Notes under the pieces: generated by a model
Database searches by the model: none
What the model saw: the letters and a program-made list of their open reading frames with translations, nothing else
What the model was told of the DNA's origin: nothing
From: Algoriphagus winogradskyi
GTDB lineage: Bacteria; Bacteroidota; Bacteroidia; Cytophagales; Cyclobacteriaceae
DNA: 64,000 nt
NCBI RefSeq assembly: GCF_900182815.1
Contig: NZ_FXUA01000001.1
Location: 620,001 to 684,000, forward strand
Direction of reading: 5' to 3'
In this document: one piece after another, positions 35,699 through 49,904 of the stretch
Numbering within the stretch: position 1 is the stretch's first letter
How the letters are laid out: each line of letters starts with the position of its first letter
Translations under genes and position numbers: made by a program

Positions 35699-36481
35699 AT
35701 GCGTTTCGCACTTTTCACTCTTCTTACTTTTTTGATAGCAAGCTCCGCTTCCTTTGCACAAAAAACATTTCACAAAAATAAAGTAATCGCTCACCGTGGC
35801 GCGTGGAAAGCACAAGCACATCCTCAGAACTCTTTGGCTTCTCTCAAAGAAGCTGTGAAGCTAGGCTGTGAAGGTTCTGAGTTTGATGTGTGGATGACTT
35901 CCGATGGAGTTTTAGTAGTAAATCATGATGCGGATTTCGAAGGTATGGAAATCGAAACCTCTACTTATAAAGACCTTTTAACCATTAAACATGAAAATGG
36001 CGAGAAGCTTTCTACCGTAGAAGAATACCTAAAAGCTGGCAAAAAACAGAAAGGCACCAAGTTGATTTTTGAAATCAAGCCATCCAAAATCTCTGTGGAA
36101 CGCAGCATAGAGGTTGCAGAAAAATCCGTGTTGGCTGTCAAGAAAATGAAAGCTCAAAAATGGGTGGATTACATCACATTCAGCTACGAAGGCGGTTTGA
36201 AGGCTATTGAAATGGATCCCAATGCAAATGTAGCTTACTTGACAGGAGACAAGACTCCAGCAGAATTGAAAGAGGCTGGATTTTTCGGCTTTGATTACAA
36301 TATTAATCTGCTGAAAAAGAATCCTCAATGGATCAAAGAAGCACAGGATCTGGGGCTAACAGTAAATGCTTGGACAGTGAACTCTGCGGAAGATTTGAAT
36401 TGGTTTCTTGATCAAAACCCGGATTTCATCACCACAGATGAGCCGGAGTTATTATTTAAACTGATCCAAGAAAGGAAGTAA
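35699..36481 (+). CDS. Exported glycerophosphodiester phosphodiesterase
   Basis: Hydrolyses glycerophosphodiesters to glycerol 3-phosphate and an alcohol. The 260-residue protein has signal peptide MRFALFTLLTFLIASSASFAQ, so it is periplasmic or secreted. GDPD signatures: KVIAHRGAWKAQAHPQNSLASLKEAVKLGCEGSEFDVWMTSDGVLVVNHDADFEG, which contains the catalytic His-Arg and the metal-binding Glu/Asp pair and second His, then KLIFEIKP and, at the end, GLTVNAWTVNSAEDLNWFLDQNPDFITTDEP. Normal length. Single gene; the next gene downstream is the 7TM sensor, 108 bases away. Confidence 0.94.
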   Translation: MRFALFTLLTFLIASSASFAQKTFHKNKVIAHRGAWKAQAHPQNSLASLKEAVKLGCEGSEFDVWMTSDGVLVVNHDADFEGMEIETSTYKDLLTIKHENGEKLSTVEEYLKAGKKQKGTKLIFEIKPSKISVERSIEVAEKSVLAVKKMKAQKWVDYITFSYEGGLKAIEMDPNANVAYLTGDKTPAELKEAGFFGFDYNINLLKKNPQWIKEAQDLGLTVNAWTVNSAEDLNWFLDQNPDFITTDEPELLFKLIQERK

Positions 36482-36541: not shown

Positions 36542-36585
36542 CATTGGGTGTCGTTTTTGTTCCTTCTACAGGAATATACCCAATG
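36542..36585 (+). promoter_or_regulatory. Inverted repeat in front of the 7TM sensor gene
   Basis: CATTGGGT (36542-36549) and ACCCAATG (36578-36585) form a perfect 8-bp inverted repeat with 28 bases between, ending 4 bases before the ATG at 36590. It may occlude the start in RNA or be a protein site. Confidence 0.35.
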
Positions 36586-36589
36586 TTTT

Positions 36590-38470
36590 ATGGACAAGTT
36601 TTATCGAAATGTATTTGTACTCCTGAGTGCAGTGAGCAGTTTGTTGTCTTCCTATGCACTTGCCCAATCATCCCAGTACACTTTTCAAATCAACGATCAG
36701 CTTGACGAAAGAATCTATGCGATAGACCGCCTTACTTTCTATGAAGACCAGAGCAACGAGCTGGAGCTTAGCGACATACTCTCCAATCCAATTAACGGCA
36801 AACTCAAGATCAATCCTGACTTCAACAAAAATAAGTTTTCAACCGAAAGTACCTATTGGGTCAAAGTTGCAATTCAGAAAACACCGCAAAGTAACAAGCA
36901 GTGGCTGATGGAATTTTATGATCAGACGATTGATCAAATAACAGCATACATACCCTCAGAAAGCGGATATAAAGAATTAAAACTCGGTGATAAGGCACCT
37001 TTTGGAGACAGAATCTTTGCACATAAAAACTTTCACATCCCTGTAGAAAATGAAACTCCAGGAATAGCCACCTATTATTTCAAAATCAAATCTTCGCAGA
37101 AGGCTGACATACGAATTGCCTTCAGATCCTACAATCGCTTCATCTATTATGCACTAAATGAGTACTTCCTTTATGGCATTTTCTATGGAATGATTCTGAT
37201 TATTTCACTTTACAATGGATTGATTTATCTGGCTATTAAAGAGGTGAAATACTTGTATTATGTATTCTACTTACTAAGCGTAGGTATTTTTGCAGCTTGT
37301 GTAGATGGGATCGCATTCCAGTATTTATGGCCCAATCATCCCGAGTGGAACCAGCCTATATCGGGCCTCTCCAGCTTTTTGATCATCGTATTTGCGCTGC
37401 TTTTCTCCACTCACTTCCTCAATTTGAAGAGGAGATTCCCCAGCATGCATCGCTGCTTTCATGTATTGCTCTTAGCTAAAACAATTCTTTTCGCAGCTGG
37501 AATTGCTTTTTTTCCAGCGCTGTTAGAAATTCAGATTTACGATATCATTCCCTTCTTTCTCATACTTTTTTCCAGCGTTTATGTCTTGGTAAAAGGCTAC
37601 AGCGTAGCACGTTTATTTGTAATTGCTTATGCTATTCTTTTTTTGGGAGTAGCACTGAAAGCAATGGTCCACACAGCCATTATTCCACACAGCACAGTAA
37701 TTTACTACAGTTTGCACATTGCCTTTCTGATGGAGATGTTGCTGCTAACTTTGGCACTTGGTGATCGGGTGAAAATTCTAAAAGACAATCGTGATCGGGC
37801 ATTACTTCGCTCTCTTCGTCAAGCAGAGGCAAATGCCCAGCTGAAAGAAAAGGTCAATAGAGAATTGGAGCAAAGAGTCAATGAAAGAACTCAGGAACTG
37901 GCTAAAAAGAACCAACTCCTCCTAGAATACAATCAGCAGATCCTAGAAAAGGATGAAGAAATTAAGCGTATTAACTCCATTTTGGATAAAGACATCTGGA
38001 AGCTAAAGTCTCAGATCAAGGAGAACCTACAGGCGAGAATCACCAATAAACGGATGAGCTATGAAGATTTCAAAAAGATATTCCCAGATTCTACCGCTTG
38101 CCTTCGCTACTTGGAGCAAGTCAAATGGGACAATGGATTTTCATGCAAAGCTTGTGAGCATACTAAATTCTCGAAGAGCTCAAAGGTTTTTCACCGTCGA
38201 TGCTCACGTTGCGGTCATATAGAATCAGCTACTGCCGGGACGATTTTCCACGGTATCCGTCTCCCGATTGAAAAAGCATTTTACCTGTCCTACACCGTCA
38301 TTTCCGAGCATAGCAAACTCACGCTGGAAGAGCTTTCCCAGTTGCTGGATCTCAGAGTAAACGCGATAAGTAGCTTCAGGGTAAAGGTCAAATTGCAACT
38401 TGAAATGAAGGGGATTCATCAACCTGAATGGGAGGACATCGTGCTGGAGCGATCGCATGAACTCAACTGA
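36590..38470 (+). CDS. 7TM-DISM sensor with transposase-derived zinc ribbon (IS1595 type) at the C-terminus
   Basis: A 626-residue membrane protein. I choose the ATG at 36590, which begins the signal peptide MDKFYRNVFVLLSAVSSLL...ALAQ. Seen in order: extracytoplasmic 7TMR-DISMED2-like beta domain (about 27-180, with STYWVKVAI and FHIPV), seven hydrophobic helices (about 190-390), a long coiled coil (about 395-480), then a zinc ribbon with C519-x2-C522 and C538-x2-C541, followed by SATAGTIFHGIRLPIEKAFYLSY and a helix-turn-helix-like LTLEELSQLLDLRVNAISSFRVKV. The last 120 residues align with the N-terminus of the IS1595-type transposase at 48859 (shared FPD...C, GxxCKxC, CxxCG, SGT/AGT, LPI, L..LGM/L.LR) but no DDE domain follows. 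It lies directly before SusC, so it may be a membrane-tethered regulator of that locus. Confidence 0.8.
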   Translation: MDKFYRNVFVLLSAVSSLLSSYALAQSSQYTFQINDQLDERIYAIDRLTFYEDQSNELELSDILSNPINGKLKINPDFNKNKFSTESTYWVKVAIQKTPQSNKQWLMEFYDQTIDQITAYIPSESGYKELKLGDKAPFGDRIFAHKNFHIPVENETPGIATYYFKIKSSQKADIRIAFRSYNRFIYYALNEYFLYGIFYGMILIISLYNGLIYLAIKEVKYLYYVFYLLSVGIFAACVDGIAFQYLWPNHPEWNQPISGLSSFLIIVFALLFSTHFLNLKRRFPSMHRCFHVLLLAKTILFAAGIAFFPALLEIQIYDIIPFFLILFSSVYVLVKGYSVARLFVIAYAILFLGVALKAMVHTAIIPHSTVIYYSLHIAFLMEMLLLTLALGDRVKILKDNRDRALLRSLRQAEANAQLKEKVNRELEQRVNERTQELAKKNQLLLEYNQQILEKDEEIKRINSILDKDIWKLKSQIKENLQARITNKRMSYEDFKKIFPDSTACLRYLEQVKWDNGFSCKACEHTKFSKSSKVFHRRCSRCGHIESATAGTIFHGIRLPIEKAFYLSYTVISEHSKLTLEELSQLLDLRVNAISSFRVKVKLQLEMKGIHQPEWEDIVLERSHELN

Positions 38471-38653
38471 TTTCAAGCAATTATCATTGGTAGTCAAATC
38501 CTGATAATAAAGCGTGAACGAATTTCTAAAAACCCCCTAAATTAATTAAATAGACGTTTTTTCAATGAAAACAAAGCAGGAATTGACATCCAGAAATCGT
38601 TAGTTCCCAAACATTTTTTCAATCGATTTCGAAGTTATTTTTTCTTAAAATCT

Positions 38654-38684
38654 TCCAGTGGTGGTAGTTTCATTTACCACTGGA
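38654..38684 (+). promoter_or_regulatory. Perfect inverted repeat upstream of susC
   Basis: TCCAGTGGT (38654-38662) and ACCACTGGA (38676-38684) form a 9-bp inverted repeat with a 13-base loop, 49 bases before the SusC start. Candidate operator, or leader hairpin in the susCD mRNA. Confidence 0.5.
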
Positions 38685-38732
38685 GCAAGTATGTGTCTCT
38701 AGTTATTAACTAAACCAAACCCAATACGCCAA

Positions 38733-41700
38733 ATGGAAAAATTGCTACCTGAGCGGGGAAATACTTGGCATCTGAACAAGTATATAATTTTAGCCCTTCT
38801 CCTATTCTCATTCTTTACTGTCCATGATTCGTTTGGACAAAATGTTCCGGTCAGCGGCACTGTTGTCGATGACACTGGATTTCCTCTTCCAGGAGTGAAT
38901 GTGGTCATCAAAGGAACCACCAACGGAACTGTCACTGACCTTGATGGTAAGTATTCCTTAGAAGTCCCAGAAGCCGCAGTTTTGGTATTCACCTTCGTGG
39001 GATTTCAAACGGTAGAGGAGCCAATAAATGGAAGAACTACCATTAACGTGACACTTGGAGAAGATCTATCTGATCTTGATGAGTTTGTAGTCGTCGGATA
39101 TGGTATTCAGCGTAAAAGCGATTTGACAGGTGCGATCTCCAGTGTCAAATCTGAAGATATCAGTCGACTGCCTGTTTCCGATGTGACCCAATCCCTTCAA
39201 GGACGCGTCAGTGGTGTTCAGATTACCCAAAATTCCGGTGCTCCAGGAGCGGGCTCTACAGTTAGGATTCGTGGTGTCGGTACATTGAACAATTCAAATC
39301 CTCTGTATGTAGTCGACGGGATGCTGCTTGATGATATCAATTTCCTAAACCCAAATGATGTGGAATCCATGGAGGTATTGAAAGATGCCTCTGCCACGGC
39401 TATTTACGGATCGAGAGGTGCAAATGGGGTAATCATCGTCACTACGAAACAAGGTTCATTTGACACAGATACGCGAGTAACTGTGGATGCATACACAGGT
39501 GTGCAGCAAGTAGCTAATAAAATCAACCTCGTAAACGCCCGTGAATTTGCGCAGCTGGCAAATGAGCTGGAACAAAATGTAGGGAATCAGCCAATTTATA
39601 ATGTAAATGATTACCAGGAAGGAACAGATTGGCAAGATTACATCTTCAGAAATGCTCCAATCAATAACATTAGCATTGGCGCGAATGGAGGTTCAGCGAA
39701 AACAAACTTCAACCTAAGTGCGAATTACTTCAATCAACAAGGTGTGGTCAAAGAATCAGAATTCGAACGTTTGACAATCCGATTGAACAACCAGTACAAA
39801 ATGAGCGAAGCAGTGACTTTTGGTCACAACCTTTCTTTCATCTATTACAATCAGCAAAATGAGCCTGGGGTAATTGGAAATGCATATCGTGCGTATCCGA
39901 TTTTCGAGCCTACTCAGCCTGATGGAAGCTATACCAACACAGCTCCAGTAGGAAATCCCGCTGCACAATTTGAGTACAACTCAAATAACCGCACCAACAA
40001 CTACCGTGGAGTGGGTAACTTCTTCATGGATGTGAAATTCCTTAAGAACTTCACCTTCCGAAGTAATGTTGGGCTAGACCTGGTATTTCAGGACTCTAAG
40101 AGCTTTACTCCTGTTTACTTTGTCTCCCCTACCCAGCAGAATCCCGAGAATTCTGTAAATGTTTCCAATATGAGAAATACAAATATTCTCTGGGAGAATA
40201 CACTGAACTACAGCAAAGAGTGGGAAGACCATCGGCTTAACTTGCTGGGCGGTATTACCACCCAAGATTTCTATACAGAATCCCTAGGTGGAGGAAGAAG
40301 GAATCTTCCAGGTGAAGACCCTTCACTTTGGTATTTGAATGCCGGTGAACTGACCTCCCAGACCAATTCTAATTCAGGAGAGTCCTGGGCTATGCTTTCC
40401 TACCTTTTCAGAGCAAATTATACGTTCAAAAACAAGTTTCTCTTTACAGGTACATTTAGAAGAGATGGATCTAGCCGATTTGGGGAAGAGAGAAGATATG
40501 GAAATTTCCCTTCCATTGCACTTGGGTATAATATCATCGAAGAAGGATTCCTTCAAAACCAAAATTTTCTTTCCAATCTGAAAATACGCGGTAGCTGGGG
40601 AAAAATCGGAAACGACAAGATCTATGTATATGAAGGCCGTCCTGTAGTAAATGGAAATCAAAACGCCGTATTCGGTGAAAATGAAGAGTTGGTTTACGGT
40701 GCGACAATAACCAGGCTTTCTAATCCATTTATTCAATGGGAAGAAACAGTTACCTCAAATATTGGTTTCGAGTTTGGCTTTTTTAATGAGAAATTGACAG
40801 GTGAGTTGGACTATTACACTAGAACCACCAACGACATCCTGGTAGCAGTTCCGATTCCATCTTATGTTGGTGCATCCAACAATCCTGTTGTCAATGCAGC
40901 AAATGTGAAGAATTCAGGGGTTGACCTTACGTTAAATTGGAGAGATCAAAAAGGTGACTTTTCCTACAATTTTGGAATCGTTGCTTCCACTGTGAATAAC
41001 GAAGTATTGGATTTGGGAGATGGTAATGAGGCTATCTTCGGAGGAGCTGTAGGAATCTCAGGCTACCTCGGGTCCAGAACGATCGTAGGTGAATCAATCG
41101 GACATTACTATGGCTACAAGACAGCAGGTGTGTTCCAAAATGAAGCTGACCTTTCTTCCATTCCAAAGCGAGGACCAGAAGTAGCTGGTGACTTAATCTA
41201 TGAAGATACCAATGGAGACGGAGTTGTCAACAGCAATGACCGGGTAATTCTTGGAAGCCCAATTCCTGATCTGGTTTACGGTTTCAATTTCGGCTTTGAC
41301 TACAAAGGCTTTGATCTAAGTGCAGATTTCAACGGTACACTCGGAAACGAAATCTACAATGCGAAGAAGCAAACCCGCTTCAACACCTACAATTTTGAAA
41401 CAAGCTACTTAGACAGATGGACCGGTGAAGGCACAAGTAATTCTGAACCTAGAGTTACGAATGGCGGACACAACTACGAAGTCTCTGATAGATTTGTAGA
41501 AGACGGTTCATTCTTGAGATTGAGAAACATCCAAGTTGGCTACAACTTCTCTGAGGTTGTTTTAAGTAAGGTAAAGCTTCAAAACTTCCGAGTTTACCTA
41601 TCCGGCACAAATGTCTTGACATGGACAAAATACTCAGGATACACGCCTGAAATCGGCGGTGGAAATGTACTAGGAACTGGATATGACAGCGGTCTATACC

Positions 41701-41744
41701 CAGTAGCAAGAACGTTTAACGTAGGCGTCTCAGCCAGCTTCTAA
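38733..41744 (+). CDS. SusC/RagA family TonB-linked outer-membrane transporter
   Basis: Imports oligosaccharides across the outer membrane together with its SusD partner, driven by TonB. The 1003-residue protein has a signal peptide (ending near VHDSFGQ), a carboxypeptidase-like domain (about 37-112: VSGTVVDDTGFPLPGVNVVIKGTTNGTVTDLDGKYSL), the SusC-type TonB box region DEFVVVGYGIQRKSDLTGAISSV, the plug (LQGRVSGVQITQNSGAPGAGSTVRIRGVGTLNNSNPLYVVDGM, DASATAIYGSRGANGVIIVTTK) and a barrel ending in ARTFNVGVSASF. The neighbour SusD begins 12 bases after its stop. Ligand is likely a beta-1,2-glucan oligosaccharide, judged from the GH144-like gene that follows. Confidence 0.95.
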   Translation: MEKLLPERGNTWHLNKYIILALLLFSFFTVHDSFGQNVPVSGTVVDDTGFPLPGVNVVIKGTTNGTVTDLDGKYSLEVPEAAVLVFTFVGFQTVEEPINGRTTINVTLGEDLSDLDEFVVVGYGIQRKSDLTGAISSVKSEDISRLPVSDVTQSLQGRVSGVQITQNSGAPGAGSTVRIRGVGTLNNSNPLYVVDGMLLDDINFLNPNDVESMEVLKDASATAIYGSRGANGVIIVTTKQGSFDTDTRVTVDAYTGVQQVANKINLVNAREFAQLANELEQNVGNQPIYNVNDYQEGTDWQDYIFRNAPINNISIGANGGSAKTNFNLSANYFNQQGVVKESEFERLTIRLNNQYKMSEAVTFGHNLSFIYYNQQNEPGVIGNAYRAYPIFEPTQPDGSYTNTAPVGNPAAQFEYNSNNRTNNYRGVGNFFMDVKFLKNFTFRSNVGLDLVFQDSKSFTPVYFVSPTQQNPENSVNVSNMRNTNILWENTLNYSKEWEDHRLNLLGGITTQDFYTESLGGGRRNLPGEDPSLWYLNAGELTSQTNSNSGESWAMLSYLFRANYTFKNKFLFTGTFRRDGSSRFGEERRYGNFPSIALGYNIIEEGFLQNQNFLSNLKIRGSWGKIGNDKIYVYEGRPVVNGNQNAVFGENEELVYGATITRLSNPFIQWEETVTSNIGFEFGFFNEKLTGELDYYTRTTNDILVAVPIPSYVGASNNPVVNAANVKNSGVDLTLNWRDQKGDFSYNFGIVASTVNNEVLDLGDGNEAIFGGAVGISGYLGSRTIVGESIGHYYGYKTAGVFQNEADLSSIPKRGPEVAGDLIYEDTNGDGVVNSNDRVILGSPIPDLVYGFNFGFDYKGFDLSADFNGTLGNEIYNAKKQTRFNTYNFETSYLDRWTGEGTSNSEPRVTNGGHNYEVSDRFVEDGSFLRLRNIQVGYNFSEVVLSKVKLQNFRVYLSGTNVLTWTKYSGYTPEIGGGNVLGTGYDSGLYPVARTFNVGVSASF

Positions 41745-41756
41745 ACCCAAAAACAA

Positions 41757-43241
41757 ATGAAAAATAAGATAAACCATAAAATAGCAGTCCTAGGCCTCGG
41801 CATTCTGATGAGTTTTGGGATAGTATCCTGCGAAGATTACTTGGAGAAAGCACCATTAGGTCAACTCACTTCTGAGAATTTCTTCAAAGATGCAACTCAG
41901 GCAACTCAAGCGGTTAATGCGATTTACGCGCATCTGAGAAGTTTCAATGTGCATGTATTTTCCTATATAGGTGTCACAGACATCGCTTCAGATGATGCAG
42001 ACAAAGGTTCTGTGCCCGGCGATGCGGGATTCCTGCAGGACATCAATGACTTCACCTTTGACGCAAATAATTCTGCAGTAAACGGAATATGGTCAGGTTA
42101 TTTTCAAGGAATTTTCCGCGCTAATCAGGTGATCGCAAATGTCCCTGAAATCGATATGGATGAGGAACTAAAAACCAGATTGATCGGCGAGGCAAGATTT
42201 CTAAGAGCCTATTTCTACTTCTTTTTAGTGAGAACTTATGGAGACTTGCCTTTGATCGAAACCCCGTTGAACCCTGATGAGTATCAACAAGCGCGTGTAT
42301 CCAAAGAAACGATTTATGCATTCATAGAGGAAGATTTAGAATTTGCGGCAGCAAATCTGCCAGAGAAGTCTGAATATCCGGCTTCTGAACTAGGTAGAGC
42401 TACAGCTGGAGCTGCAAAGTCATTTTTGGCTAAAGTGCACCTTTTTCAAAATGAATTTCAGGAAGCCTATGATATGGCTCAGGAAGTGATTGCCAGTGGT
42501 GAATATGAGCTTTATCCCGATTACGAAGGCATTTTCCGTAGAGAAGGTGAGCATTCTTCGGAAAGTATTTTCGAAGTGTCCACCGTTGCGCTCGAAGCTG
42601 GTGGTGGCGGATCTCAGTTTAACGAGGTGCAGGGAATCCGTGGCAATCCAAATAACGGCTGGGGCTTCAATGGACCATCGGATGATTTGATGGCTGCTTA
42701 TGAAGAGAATGATCCAAGACTTGCAGCGACCATAATTAACGAAGGTGATACTTTGCCTTCAGGAGAGATTGTGATGCCAGATCCAAATATGGGTGCTAAT
42801 GCCCGTTTTAGTAGAAAAGCTTGGTTGCCGGAAAGACCACCGTCTGGCTTTGGTAACAGTGGTGCAAATATCCGCTTATTCAGATATGCTGATTTGCTTT
42901 TGATCGCAGCAGAGGCGGCTAACGAAATCGGGAATTCTAGCCAAGCGTTGGAATATGTCAACCTGGTGAGAGAAAGAGCCCGTCAAGGCAATGAGGATAT
43001 TTTACCAGACTTGACTATGACTGAGCAGTCCGAACTAAGAGAAGCCATCTATCATGAGAGAAGAGTGGAATTAGCCATGGAGCAACACAGATATTTTGAT
43101 TTGGTGAGACAAGGAAGAGCACAGGAAGTGTTCGCAGCACTAGGAATCACCTGGACTCCTGGCAAGCATGAAGTTTATCCAATACCTCAGTCAGAAATCG
43201 ACATTAGCGGAGGTTCAATCATCCAGAATCCGGGGTACTAA
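41757..43241 (+). CDS. SusD/RagB family surface glycan-binding lipoprotein
   Basis: Surface lipoprotein that captures glycan and caps the SusC channel. The 494 residues begin with a lipoprotein signal (GILMSFGIVSCEDYLEKAPLGQLTSENFF; the cysteine after VS is the lipidated residue), then TPR-like helices typical of the family (AVNAIYAHLRSFN, ARFLRAYFYFFLVRTYGDLPLIE, ATAGAAKSFLAKVHLFQNEFQEAYDMAQEVIASG) and the C-terminal RYADLLLIAAEAANEIGNSSQALEYVNLVRERA and EAIYHERRVELAMEQHRYFDLVRQGR motifs. Forms an operon with SusC; a hairpin (43249-43290) follows and separates it from the hydrolase gene. Confidence 0.95.
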   Translation: MKNKINHKIAVLGLGILMSFGIVSCEDYLEKAPLGQLTSENFFKDATQATQAVNAIYAHLRSFNVHVFSYIGVTDIASDDADKGSVPGDAGFLQDINDFTFDANNSAVNGIWSGYFQGIFRANQVIANVPEIDMDEELKTRLIGEARFLRAYFYFFLVRTYGDLPLIETPLNPDEYQQARVSKETIYAFIEEDLEFAAANLPEKSEYPASELGRATAGAAKSFLAKVHLFQNEFQEAYDMAQEVIASGEYELYPDYEGIFRREGEHSSESIFEVSTVALEAGGGGSQFNEVQGIRGNPNNGWGFNGPSDDLMAAYEENDPRLAATIINEGDTLPSGEIVMPDPNMGANARFSRKAWLPERPPSGFGNSGANIRLFRYADLLLIAAEAANEIGNSSQALEYVNLVRERARQGNEDILPDLTMTEQSELREAIYHERRVELAMEQHRYFDLVRQGRAQEVFAALGITWTPGKHEVYPIPQSEIDISGGSIIQNPGY

Positions 43242-43400: not shown

Positions 43401-44987
43401 ATGAAAAACCCTTTGCCCCTCCCCATTCTCACCTTAGCTGTATTTTCATTTGCTTGCCAACAAGCAGATGAAAATACCAATACCATCAAGGCGACACCAT
43501 ATGATATTCATGTGGAACTCTCTTGGGATAAAGATCCAAAAGCAGACTCCTATGGAGTATGGATAAGTATGGATGATGATCACTATACCAGACGGGCTGT
43601 GCTAGAGGACACGATTTACTTGGATTTCGTGAATGACCTCGGGATGGAACTGGATCTGAACTACGAGGTCAGAGCTTATTCCGGTGAGGATTCTACCATC
43701 GTTGGAAGAGCGGCCACCAAAACTCATAAAATGACGGATGAAGAACTTCTGGATATGGTGGAGTTCTATACCTTCCGCTATTTCTGGGATGGAGCTGAAC
43801 CGAATTCTGGTCTAGCTCCAGAGCGAATTCACATCGATGGAGAATATCCGCAAAACGATGCCCACGTCATAACAACAGGAGGTTCTGGAATGGGCATCTT
43901 CGGTCTGATCGCAGGGATGGAAAGAGGCTGGATCACCAAAGAACAAGGAGTAGCACGATTTGAGAAAATCGTGGGTTTTCTGGAAAAAGCAGACAAATTC
44001 AAAGGGGTTTGGCCGCACTGGATAAACGGACAAACCGGAAAAGTGCAGCCTTTTGGCCAAAAAGATAATGGGGGCGATCTGGTAGAGTCTGCCTACCTGA
44101 TGCAAAGCCTTATCGCCGTTCGGGAATATTTCAAAGATGGAGATGATAGACAAAAAGCGGTTGCAGACCGAATAGATCAACTCTGGAAAGAAATGGACTG
44201 GACATGGTACACTCGAGATGGGCAGGATGTGTTGTATTGGCACTGGTCACCGGAGTTTGCTTGGGACATGAATTTCCCACTGGAAGGATACAACGAATGT
44301 CTTATCACCTATGTACTCGCAGCTTCCTCTCCTACTCACACGATTGATCCAGCGGCTTACCACAAGGGATGGGCAAGAAGCGGAGGAATCAAATCCGAAA
44401 AGGAAGCTTTTGGCTATGAATTGGTCTTAAAGCATAATGGAGCTGAAGAAAAGGGCGGACCCCTTTTCTGGGCCCATTATTCCTATTTGGGCTTAAATCC
44501 TATGGGATTGAAAGATAAATATGCAGACTATCAAAAGCTAAATACTAACCATACGCTTATCAACCGAGCACACGTAGTTGAAAATCCAAATGGATTTGCC
44601 GGCTACGGAGAAGATCTCTGGGGACTGACTGCTTCCTACTCTATCAACGGCTATAATGCGCATTTTCCTAGAAATGATACAGGAGTAATTTCGCCAACTG
44701 CTGCGATTTCATCTATTCCTTACACTCCGGAAGAGTCCATGAAAGTGATCAAAAACCTCTATTACAATTATGGTAAAAAGGTGCTTGGAAGATATGGTTT
44801 CTATGATGCTATGAGTCCTGAGCATGATTATTATCCTGAGCGATACCTTGCGATCGATCAGGGCCCGATGGTCGCTATGATAGAAAACTATAGAACTGGA
44901 CTAGGTTGGAAATTATTTATGGGCGCACCTGAAGTTCAGGAAGGATTGAAAAAGCTGGGCTTTGAAGGTCCAAACATTGCCAAATAG
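43401..44987 (+). CDS. Glucoamylase-fold family protein, GH144-like endo-beta-1,2-glucanase
   Basis: Probable hydrolase of the susCD locus. The 528-residue lipoprotein (signal ending in FSFACQQ) has an Fn3-like beta domain (about 30-105) and an (alpha/alpha)6 catalytic region from residue 115: FYTFRYFWDGAEPNSGLAPER, DAHVITTGGSGMGIFGLIAGMERGWIT, RFEKIVGFLEKADKFKGVWPHWINGQTGKVQPFGQKDNGGDLVESAYLMQSLI, WHWSPEFAWDMNFPLEGYNECLITYVLAASSPTHTI and DQGPMVAMIENYRTGL. This is the pattern of GH144 endo-beta-1,2-glucanases and the Glycoamylase family. A beta-1,2-glucan target is inferred from the family. The lone hydrolase means partner glucosidases lie elsewhere. Confidence 0.85.
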   Translation: MKNPLPLPILTLAVFSFACQQADENTNTIKATPYDIHVELSWDKDPKADSYGVWISMDDDHYTRRAVLEDTIYLDFVNDLGMELDLNYEVRAYSGEDSTIVGRAATKTHKMTDEELLDMVEFYTFRYFWDGAEPNSGLAPERIHIDGEYPQNDAHVITTGGSGMGIFGLIAGMERGWITKEQGVARFEKIVGFLEKADKFKGVWPHWINGQTGKVQPFGQKDNGGDLVESAYLMQSLIAVREYFKDGDDRQKAVADRIDQLWKEMDWTWYTRDGQDVLYWHWSPEFAWDMNFPLEGYNECLITYVLAASSPTHTIDPAAYHKGWARSGGIKSEKEAFGYELVLKHNGAEEKGGPLFWAHYSYLGLNPMGLKDKYADYQKLNTNHTLINRAHVVENPNGFAGYGEDLWGLTASYSINGYNAHFPRNDTGVISPTAAISSIPYTPEESMKVIKNLYYNYGKKVLGRYGFYDAMSPEHDYYPERYLAIDQGPMVAMIENYRTGLGWKLFMGAPEVQEGLKKLGFEGPNIAK

Positions 44988-48844: not shown

Positions 48845-48854
48845 AAAAGTTAAT
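48845..48854. repeat. Left target-site duplication of the IS1595-like element
   Basis: AAAAGTTAAT, repeated exactly at 49895-49904, immediately outside the two ends of the insertion sequence. IS1595-family elements usually duplicate 8 bases; the two extra matching bases may be chance. Confidence 0.75.
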
Positions 48855-48879
48855 ATGATTATCCGCAATCATACCAGTA
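48855..48879. repeat. Left terminal inverted repeat of the IS
   Basis: Begins ATGATTATCCGCAATCATAC and pairs with the right end at 49870-49894, 20 of 25 positions matching. Confidence 0.8.
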
Positions 48880-49779
48880 TGGGTAAATTGAAGCAATGAT
48901 GAGTCTGTCAAAGAGTTTTTGACCAAAATATCTTCGGTTGAGTTTGTAACAAAACTCGTCCAGATAGTTCTGCATCATTCGTTCACTGATCATATGGTAT
49001 GTCTGCAGGTGTTTCTTTAAGTTACTGATTGCAATATGAACCCACTTGAGGTTAAAATTGCCTTCTTTGGTTCCAGAGATTTCACTGACATGAACATCAA
49101 TACAATCACTCAGATCTGAGAAGGTGGTACTCTTATCTGTTTGAAGTACAGCGTTTGAATCAATGTAGTCTTTGATTAAATGCTGTGCTGTTTTTGCCTC
49201 CAAGTTCTTTATCTTCTTCATTTTGAAGTATCTGCAGCTCTTGTCACCTTTACCCGACTCAGGATCTTCTAAAGGCGTGGATTCAGCCATGACAGCCACT
49301 TTTGACTGTTTTTGACTGCCTCTTCCTCGCTTGAGTTGGCTTCGGACCTTGGCCTTGGTGGCTTTTCCCACGAATGCCTCATCGTATTCCACCATGTCCT
49401 CCAGTCGGTAGCGGTCATCCCGTTGCCCCATCACCACGCGGAGCTTGTGATACATCCTGAAAACCGGTTCGTAGCGTTTCATTCCCAGCTGTCGCTGGAG
49501 TTCTGCTGCACTGAACCCTTTCTTGGTGGCGGTGATGAACGTAATGGCCATCATCCAGGTCCTAATTGGCAGATTACTGCTCTGCATGACCGTACCACTC
49601 CTGATACTGGTTCTGAATCCACAGGAAGCACACTGGAAGGAAAGCTTATTTTCAAGCCAATAATGATTCAATCCAGCACACTTCTTACAGATAATTCCCT
49701 GATGGATCCTTTGTTCTTTGATGAATTCGATACAAGAAGATTCGTCTGGAAATCGATTAATGAAATTGATAATATTCAT
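48859..49779 (-). CDS. IS1595 family transposase (ISXO2-like DDE)
   Basis: A 306-residue transposase that mobilises the surrounding element. Order: N-terminal INFINRFPDESSCIEFIKE, zinc ribbon CKKCAG...CASCG, SGT...NLPIRTWMMAITFITATKKG with a helix-turn-helix, then the ISXO2-like DDE domain: VEYDEAFVGKATK (Asp), ALQTDKSTTFSDL (Asp) and WVHIAISNLKKHLQTYHMISERMMQNYLDEFCYKLNRR as the third-acid region. Frame is intact. The in-frame ATG at 49779 (MNIINFINRF) is a better start than 49791. The N-terminal half is homologous to the tail of the 36590 sensor. Confidence 0.93.
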   Translation of the reverse strand: MNIINFINRFPDESSCIEFIKEQRIHQGIICKKCAGLNHYWLENKLSFQCASCGFRTSIRSGTVMQSSNLPIRTWMMAITFITATKKGFSAAELQRQLGMKRYEPVFRMYHKLRVVMGQRDDRYRLEDMVEYDEAFVGKATKAKVRSQLKRGRGSQKQSKVAVMAESTPLEDPESGKGDKSCRYFKMKKIKNLEAKTAQHLIKDYIDSNAVLQTDKSTTFSDLSDCIDVHVSEISGTKEGNFNLKWVHIAISNLKKHLQTYHMISERMMQNYLDEFCYKLNRRYFGQKLFDRLIIASIYPYWYDCG

Positions 49780-49869
49780 GGCCAAAACCATTTATTTCGA
49801 CCTAATTTAAAACGAGTTAAAACCTCAATAAAGCAATTGTCACCAACTGTCAATAAGAACTTATTTGGT

Positions 49870-49894
49870 TACTGGTGTCTTTGCGGATATACAT
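49870..49894. repeat. Right terminal inverted repeat of the IS
   Basis: Inverse partner of 48855-48879; on the plus strand it reads TACTGGTGTCTTTGCGGATA before ending in TACAT. Inward of it is an AT-rich transposase leader. Confidence 0.8.
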
Positions 49895-49904
49895 AAAAGT
49901 TAAT
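49895..49904. repeat. Right target-site duplication of the IS1595-like element
   Basis: AAAAGTTAAT, identical to 48845-48854. Confidence 0.75.

Follow-up and report, generated by a model that had tools for sequence, protein, structure and literature searches.

The stretch of DNA considered here ('the window') comprises 64,000 nucleotides of the Algoriphagus winogradskyi genome (contig NZ_FXUA01000001.1, positions 620,001 to 684,000). On its forward strand, at 36590..38470, it encodes a 626-residue receptor that ends in a transposase-type module and is followed by the genes susC and susD. The receptor is very likely a membrane-bound one-component regulator of transcription, probably an activator, that acts on a carbohydrate-uptake operon, here beside a GH144 gene. 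Four properties of the system are read out by computation: (i) the architecture of the receptor, (ii) the origin of its tail among the sequences sampled, (iii) its linkage to susC, and (iv) two sequence boxes upstream of susC, with their spacing and orientation.

A receptor with a transposase-type tail

The start region of the receptor forms an N-terminal hydrophobic helix, followed by an extracytoplasmic 7TMR-DISMED2 domain (PF07696, residues 47-177, 36728-37120, Pfam E 6.5e-27) and the seven-transmembrane (7TM) domain 7TMR-DISM_7TM (PF07695, residues 191-393, 37160-37768, E 6.4e-45), in the order typical of 7TMR-DISM receptors. In the AlphaFold2 model a long signalling helix then extends to about residue 483 (38038). 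Beyond it, the putative DNA-binding tail is made of a zinc ribbon of the IS1595 transposase type (PF12760, residues 500-543, 38087..38218, E 8.9e-8) and, 3' of the ribbon, a helix-turn-helix (HTH; residues about 560-606, 38267..38407) assigned from a model of the tail and a profile match. Domains of the window proteins were assigned with Pfam at E<=1. The zinc ribbon scores 32.4 bits against a cut-off of 25.4, and the DISMED2 and 7TM matches likewise lie above their Pfam cut-offs. Within the same limit the receptor has no DDE catalytic domain (PF12762), no kinase, cyclase, receiver, AraC or sigma domain and no match to PF19904 (DUF6377); an NCBIfam scan of the receptor gave nothing informative. 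A first-pass annotation, made from the letters of the window, had described a 7TM sensor with a DISMED2-like domain whose output is an IS1595-type ribbon plus HTH without the DDE domain. That architecture is confirmed, and the match of the tail to transposase zinc ribbons is significant. An in-frame GTG at 36548 would extend the receptor to 640 residues; alignments of close relatives begin at the ATG at 36590. The coordinates given at first (36590-38470) are correct.

The AlphaFold2 model of the whole protein (predicted local distance difference test, pLDDT, 76) shows a beta-rich periplasmic domain, the transmembrane helices and a single continuous helix from residue 369 to 483, with the tail region poorly modelled. 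Between the long helix and the tail, at residues 464-466 and 468-487, pLDDT falls below 50, in a stretch whose sequence is conserved among relatives. Modelled by itself, the tail shows three zinc-ribbon strands and three HTH-type helices, with a pLDDT of 82 in the best and 53 in the worst of five models. Comparisons with solved structures returned a best E of 0.93 for the DISMED2 part and of 0.023, to a ribosomal protein, for the tail profile. Foldseek found nothing below E 0.5 with the tail, and a second structural aligner gave Z scores of 5 and less, mostly to homeodomain and other HTH proteins, from which no conclusion was drawn.

The zinc ligands of the tail are strongly conserved. Cysteines 519, 522, 538 and 541 are invariant in 22/22 aligned tails, and the CxxC...CxxC pattern is kept in 96/96 fusion tails, with at most 15 residues beyond the profile match. 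In whole genomes, a profile of the 22 tails matches transposase-length frames with E down to 2.2e-43 (in G507), and the match to the transposase N-termini extends through the HTH of the tail; the ribbon that is C-terminal in the receptor is thus homologous to the N-termini of transposases. The window itself carries an IS1595-type transposase on the reverse strand (48859..49791, PF12762 and PF12760), a relative of the tail that is not part of the regulator; the same profile matches it at E 5.8e-16, and at 57.5 bits in a small set of 236 sequences. The homology to this copy, 10 kb away, that the first-pass annotation had claimed is therefore real; the tail has closer relatives than this copy. 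The copy was rejected as the source of the tail, as other IS1595-type frames of the host family are closer in the tree.

A tree was built from 113 sequences, comprising tails and transposase N-termini, and a branch supported at 100/98 separates the 96 fusion tails from the rest. With 124 columns and long branches flagged by the program, the resolution of this tree is limited. Provided that the root lies among the transposases, the branch points to a single capture among the sequences sampled, followed by descent with duplication. The fusion tails form one group, keep their zinc ligands and have lost the DDE domain, and the proposal of a domesticated transposase module for DNA binding is supported accordingly by sequence comparison.

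The receptor family is old and conserved. Full-length relatives occur in 16/72 genomes of the genus. At 1e-45 the whole receptor is matched in 151/295 genomes of the host family and in 47/84 genera; leaving out G258 and G274, which have no tail match, 149/295 family genomes match the whole receptor and the tail, both in one protein by inference for those matches not individually printed. Across the class, long open frames carrying the tail occur in 16/395 genomes from five families. The closest named relatives that carry the locus are Algoriphagus species; other named carriers are Echinicola, Chryseolinea, Ohtaekwangia, Chryseosolibacter and Pedobacter hiemivivus (36% identity). One contig (L073, CABHOV010000027.1), which bears the label uncultured Bacteroides, encodes a receptor near-identical to that of Ohtaekwangia koreensis (L082) and is perhaps a mislabelled bin.

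The susC operon and its putative operator

Directly downstream of the receptor, all on the forward strand, lie susC (38733..41744), the first gene of the proposed target operon, susD (41757..43241) and a gene for a GH144 endo-beta-1,2-glucanase-type enzyme (43401..44987, PF10091). Open reading frames (ORFs) and Pfam establish this order, as noted at first pass, and susC is placed by its neighbourhood as well. Beta-1,2-glucan is the likely substrate of the locus because the GH144 protein matches the endo-beta-1,2-glucanase 5gzh at E 7.6e-184.

Relatives of the receptor were divided into groups A, B and C at cut-offs of 735 and 480 bits, which are the authors' choice; the 59 group A rows cluster in the tail tree together with three group B rows. 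For the neighbourhood counts, five duplicate-tail loci were removed and un-annotated ORFs below 120 aa were ignored. How often susC is the next gene, a count proposed with the first annotation, depends on the group. A same-strand susC comes next in 51 of the 59 group A loci, 49 of the 59 having GH144 within six genes. In group B (n=19) susC comes next in 13 loci and is no more than three genes away in 18, and in group C (17 evaluable of 18) the corresponding counts are one and three. Within the genus, susC is adjacent to the receptor in 15/15 members besides the window. Other 7TMR-DISM proteins served as controls, and susC is next in 0/17 of them, one control having no downstream ORF in its stretch.

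Partner enzymes track the subfamily in loci whose neighbours were identified, families having been assigned for 30 of the neighbouring proteins. GH30 is found in four of five group B loci (L129, L133, L136, L139), the fifth (L160) having GH2, and GH10 in all four group C loci scanned (L147, L148, L151, L152), two of which also carry GH43 or GH3. The order-level locus L144 has GH3. Deviants within group A are L127, with GH30, and L126, with GH95 and GH3; in L116 and L120 receptor and susC are divergently oriented. At L160 (G596) the receptor sits between a cyclomaltodextrinase-type GH13 gene and GH2, with susCD further on, which suggests another sugar. Group C loci (L147-L166) carry the same tail near xylan-type enzymes, and several of their receptors are divergent from a GH10-like gene. 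On the other side of the receptor, a glycerophosphodiester phosphodiesterase-type gene (35699-36481 in the window) is present in four further Algoriphagus loci, the remaining scanned loci showing no recognisable counterpart; it is probably unrelated to the receptor system.

When the receptor-susC spacers of 16 genus members are aligned, two conserved boxes stand out amid diverged sequence. The putative operator of the window consists of box 1 (TGATAATAAAGCGTGAA, 38502..38518) and box 2 (TGAAAACAAAGCAGGAA, 38566..38582), on the same strand (+), in the same orientation and 64 bp apart. The boxes are alike and change in concert between species. Nearer members of the genus also share a patch, TAGTTTCA, at 38665..38672 (+), which matches the -7 promoter element consensus TAnnTTTG imperfectly and is possibly such an element.

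The spacing recurs without any alignment. Self-comparison of the spacers at offsets of 20-139 places 64 first in the 16 genus spacers (z 10.5) and first again in 43 non-genus spacers (z 6.7), followed by 63, 66 and 65. A pair matrix that allowed spacings of 58-71 was fitted to 59 regions: the 16 of the genus and 43 of the 51 group A loci with susC next, eight genus members having been removed. All 59 fit at 63-66 bp, with scores above the highest of 1180 shuffled values. Since the matrix was fitted to the same data, the fit was repeated on 12 shuffled sets, which gave mean scores of 11.6-12.6 compared with 28.9 for the real set. A matrix built from the genus only, with spacing left free between 30 and 120, places 12 of the 43 held-out regions at 63-66, where 1.9 are expected. 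The median distance from the start of the box 2 match to the called start of susC is 161 bp. In its own genome box 1 has an exact match only at the susC site; at up to three mismatches it has 19 sites, equal to the 19 of the reversed control pattern. The one-mismatch site, inside a gene and on the other strand, was treated as noise.

Other subfamilies carry other boxes, that of group B being related to the boxes described above. In group B the core [GC]CGTAT, picked after inspection of alignments, occurs twice, 78-81 bp apart, in 13/13 of L130-L142 (13/22 regions overall), so that subfamilies differ both in partner enzyme and in box, with GH30 accompanying the 78-81 bp spacing in L130-L142. 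Enriched 6-mers agree with the boxes and are strand-specific. GCGTAT is found in 20 of 25 group B and other spacers (expected 1.8; reverse complement 1 vs 1.6), and AAGCGT in 14 of the same 25 (expected 2.1; reverse complement 1 vs 2.3) and in 12 of 47 non-genus group A spacers (expected 2.1; reverse complement 2 vs 1.9); the counts are not independent, because the spacers are partly related by descent. For group C operators are only suggested: of eight loci aligned, L147 and L156 have TTTAAGCG ahead of the divergent gene and some of the others have variants of it, and the signal is weak. A second element, CGATTG/ATCGATT, is enriched in 38471-38732 and in the spacers of many relatives (CGATTG in 14/47 of group A, expected 2.4, and in 13/25 of group B and others, expected 1.8). 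It may be the site of another regulator.

Target and neighbour can be told apart in rearranged loci. In L082, where receptor and susC are separated by a 255-aa gene and a small reverse gene, the box pair is immediately before susC; in L120 the pair is directed at the divergent susC. In both, the pair accompanies susC rather than the receptor. These two belong to eight group A exceptions that were scanned separately, five of which have the pair. In L091, where two genes are inserted at the start of the operon, it lies ahead of them, and in L127, which has no susC downstream, before the GH30 gene; both fit and do not discriminate target from neighbour. The pair of L073 is at a contig end, distant from the receptor.

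In G006 a syntenic locus, identified from the order and lengths of its genes, has GH144 and the genes on either side, and the receptor, susC, susD and the box pair are all missing. At this locus of the sister species (L316, G006:C30:48000-67000), two reverse genes of 336 and 446 aa occupy the place where the block of receptor, susCD and boxes was lost or never present. A long GH144 occurs in all 15 receptor-bearing genus genomes compared, and G006 is the sole other genome with one. A further 23 genomes have a shorter GH144 only; 15 of these stand-alone loci were fetched, and in none of them was a receptor, SusC or SusD recognised or does a pair precede GH144, one stray pair (L317) lying elsewhere in the stretches. 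The idea that the SusCD locus is the target, put forward at first pass, thus gains support from linkage, the conserved pair, the L082 and L120 arrangements and joint absence in a related species.

The boxes also resemble the ends of insertion sequences (ISs). The IS1595-type element of the window (48854-49895) has an open transposase frame and 26-nt end repeats at 48854-48879 and 49870-49895, which are 81% complementary; one of them overlaps the end of the transposase gene. End repeats were obtained from multi-copy elements and local alignment, with the register set by hand. In elements with transposases closer to the tail, these repeats read, from inner to outer, about ATATGAAATTAA..GG.CACCTCT. 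Columns of operator and end repeats were compared, with permutations of the operator columns as the null. For all 12 near ends p is 0.0055 and 0.006 in two permutations, for six ends of five near elements 0.011, and for the initial choice of 9/12 near ends (both G200 ends and one G014 end left out) 0.007. The far IS group, which includes the IS of the window, gives 0.048, and the orientation is the same in every comparison. Scored singly with the operator matrix, two of six far-group ends fall below 0.05. Kinship between operator boxes and IS1595 end repeats is suggested rather than shown, because the comparison followed the noticing of the likeness.

Proposed mechanism and alternatives

From these features we infer how the receptor may work. 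Its periplasmic DISMED2 domain would sense a glucan fragment, for group A probably beta-1,2-gluco-oligosaccharides because the operon contains GH144. The 7TM bundle and the long helix would relay the signal, probably in a dimer, to zinc ribbon-HTH tails derived from an IS1595-type transposase, which would bind the two direct-repeat boxes 64 bp apart while still tethered to the membrane. Binding upstream of susC would then activate transcription of susC-susD-GH144. Conserved boxes and the homology of the tail are the two arguments for sequence-specific DNA binding by the tail, and the direct-repeat pair is the probable operator of the receptor.

Several results weigh against this mechanism. With the genus-only matrix just 16 of the 43 held-out regions exceed the 95% null (14 at 64-65), and eight exceed it when their reverse strand is scored; spacers from related species are not independent, and the shuffles retained base doublets, not full dinucleotide composition. 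Three of the eight group A exceptions (L101, L116, L126) have no pair above threshold. In group B the self-offset test on 13 spacers lacks a peak at 78-81, its highest z being 3.1 at an offset of 133, and nine of 22 regions depart from that spacing, with 65 bp in L129, 90 bp in L160, 206 bp in L128, a single site in four and none in two. Group C has susC next in only 1/17 loci and weak boxes. The 17 control receptors amount to few independent controls, because most are orthologues of one kinase. Among single near IS ends, 0/12 score below 0.05 with the operator matrix.

Another protein could also be the binder of the boxes. The tail would then be a protein-protein or dimerisation module, with a different regulator on the conserved boxes and the operon controlled by another route. 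Such an arrangement draws on the fact that box binding by the tail is deduced from sequence and on the enrichment of CGATTG in the same promoters, by which more than one factor may act. It is quite improbable given that both CxxC pairs are kept in 96/96 tails, that box type and spacing vary with the receptor subfamily, that boxes and receptor are missing together from the G006 sister locus, and that the boxes, read in the same orientation, resemble the end repeats of IS1595 elements (p 0.0055 for the 12 near ends, 0.048 for the far ones). Sequence does not reveal the sign of control, and a tethered tail might instead block susC transcription until sugar releases it. Repression of this kind is unlikely because the boxes lie well upstream of susC (median 161 bp), a position more usual for activators. 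SusR, which has a similar predicted operator layout, is described as an activator (PMC3878776).

Release of the tail by proteolysis upon activation, so that it acts as a soluble factor, had been raised at first pass. The low-pLDDT stretch (residues 464-466 and 468-487) could in the model be a cleavable link between helix and tail, but it is itself conserved in sequence, and SusR, as described in PMC3878776, is a membrane-bound regulator with a similar predicted operator; cleavage has only a small chance of being the mode of action. A chance or recent functionless fusion with a degenerate transposase, to which the IS1595 copy 10 kb away might point, can be dismissed almost entirely. The fusion was rejected as an accident because it is conserved across the family (149/295 genomes, 47/84 genera) and its tails form a single tree group; zinc ligands and context are conserved too, and the nearby IS is not the closest relative. 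The activator acting from the membrane is the reading carried forward.

Relation to known regulators

The SusR-like family, which we take to correspond to DUF6377 (PF19904), was represented in the comparison by ten DUF6377 proteins; one DUF6377 gene lies beside a SusA homologue in G573. No SusR was found beside SusA homologues among 30 loci (1.5-kb flanks). Like the receptor, SusR-like proteins are membrane-anchored one-component regulators with a periplasmic sensor and a C-terminal HTH, often encoded beside susCD or glycosidase genes. The ten DUF6377 proteins have one to three hydrophobic stretches in a crude hydropathy scan and no CxxC, whereas the receptor has 7TM and a zinc ribbon. Profile comparison of DUF6377 with the receptor tail aligns 25 HTH residues at a probability of 16%. 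Unfiltered profile scores for the ten proteins reach 11.5 and 10.5 bits; these are weak but not nil, and remote HTH kinship is left open for that reason. Membership of the SusR-like family was rejected on these grounds and on the lack of PF19904.

Three classes of regulator are named for polysaccharide loci in PMC3878776: SusR-like, hybrid two-component and extracytoplasmic function (ECF) systems. SusR-like proteins are described there as membrane-bound, with predicted operators made of direct repeats 67 or 77 bp apart. The boxes predicted for the receptor, 63-66 or 78-81 bp apart, share this layout, which is a striking likeness and not homology. By analogy, the receptor would work like SusR while standing outside the DUF6377 family tested. 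Hybrid two-component and ECF systems share with it the sensing of glycan signals at the envelope and control of susCD operons, as far as PMC3878776 describes them, and differ in that the receptor has no histidine kinase, receiver, AraC or sigma domain at E<=1.

The first-pass annotation knew of no characterised 7TMR-DISM protein with this output. Among the literature matches listed, no paper describes the joint architecture of 7TMR-DISM and IS1595 ribbon, subscription journals lying mostly outside the coverage; a 7TMR-DISM with another DNA-binding domain does have precedent. In Proteobacteria, 7TMR-DISM is among the domains that co-occur with the ChiS-family DNA-binding domain (PMC8092284). 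ChiS-family proteins are likewise receptors with a DNA-binding domain of their own, and ChiS controls a chitin programme; as described in that source they are set apart by occurrence in Proteobacteria and by a helix-sheet-helix domain in place of the IS1595 zinc ribbon-HTH, and its relevant text does not mention susCD.

IS1595 transposases share with the receptor the homologous zinc ribbon and HTH (E down to 2.2e-43) and end repeats that resemble the boxes. They differ from the receptor tail, which has no DDE domain, is fused to a receptor and forms a separate group in the tree. TldR proteins, derived from the transposon protein TnpB and free of a receptor, are a further case of a transposon protein turned bacterial transcription factor. 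They differ in being RNA-guided (PMC13418256).

A broader proposal, tentative though far from implausible, is that these receptors form a further class of regulator beside the SusR-like, hybrid two-component and ECF classes, and that the class arose in a single event, when a receptor acquired the DNA-binding half of a transposase of the IS1595 family. The operators may derive from the end repeats or mimic them, the specificity of the transposase being kept and spread to glucan and xylan operons, and their long-spaced repeats match SusR-like predictions. If so, roughly half of the sampled family genomes (149/295) would hold another class of complex-sugar regulator of Bacteroidota, with a predicted operator, and the receptor would clearly exemplify, in bacteria, the conversion of a transposase DNA-binding module into a receptor output. 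Because a different family, the SusR-like one, has matching predicted repeats, control from the membrane may itself favour two boxes six to eight helix turns apart, and the receptors would make it possible to examine whether the geometry of an operator is dictated by tethering to the membrane. The partner enzymes GH144, GH30 and GH10 suggest that the subfamilies sense different glycans, and the receptor family may offer ready-made sugar sensors.

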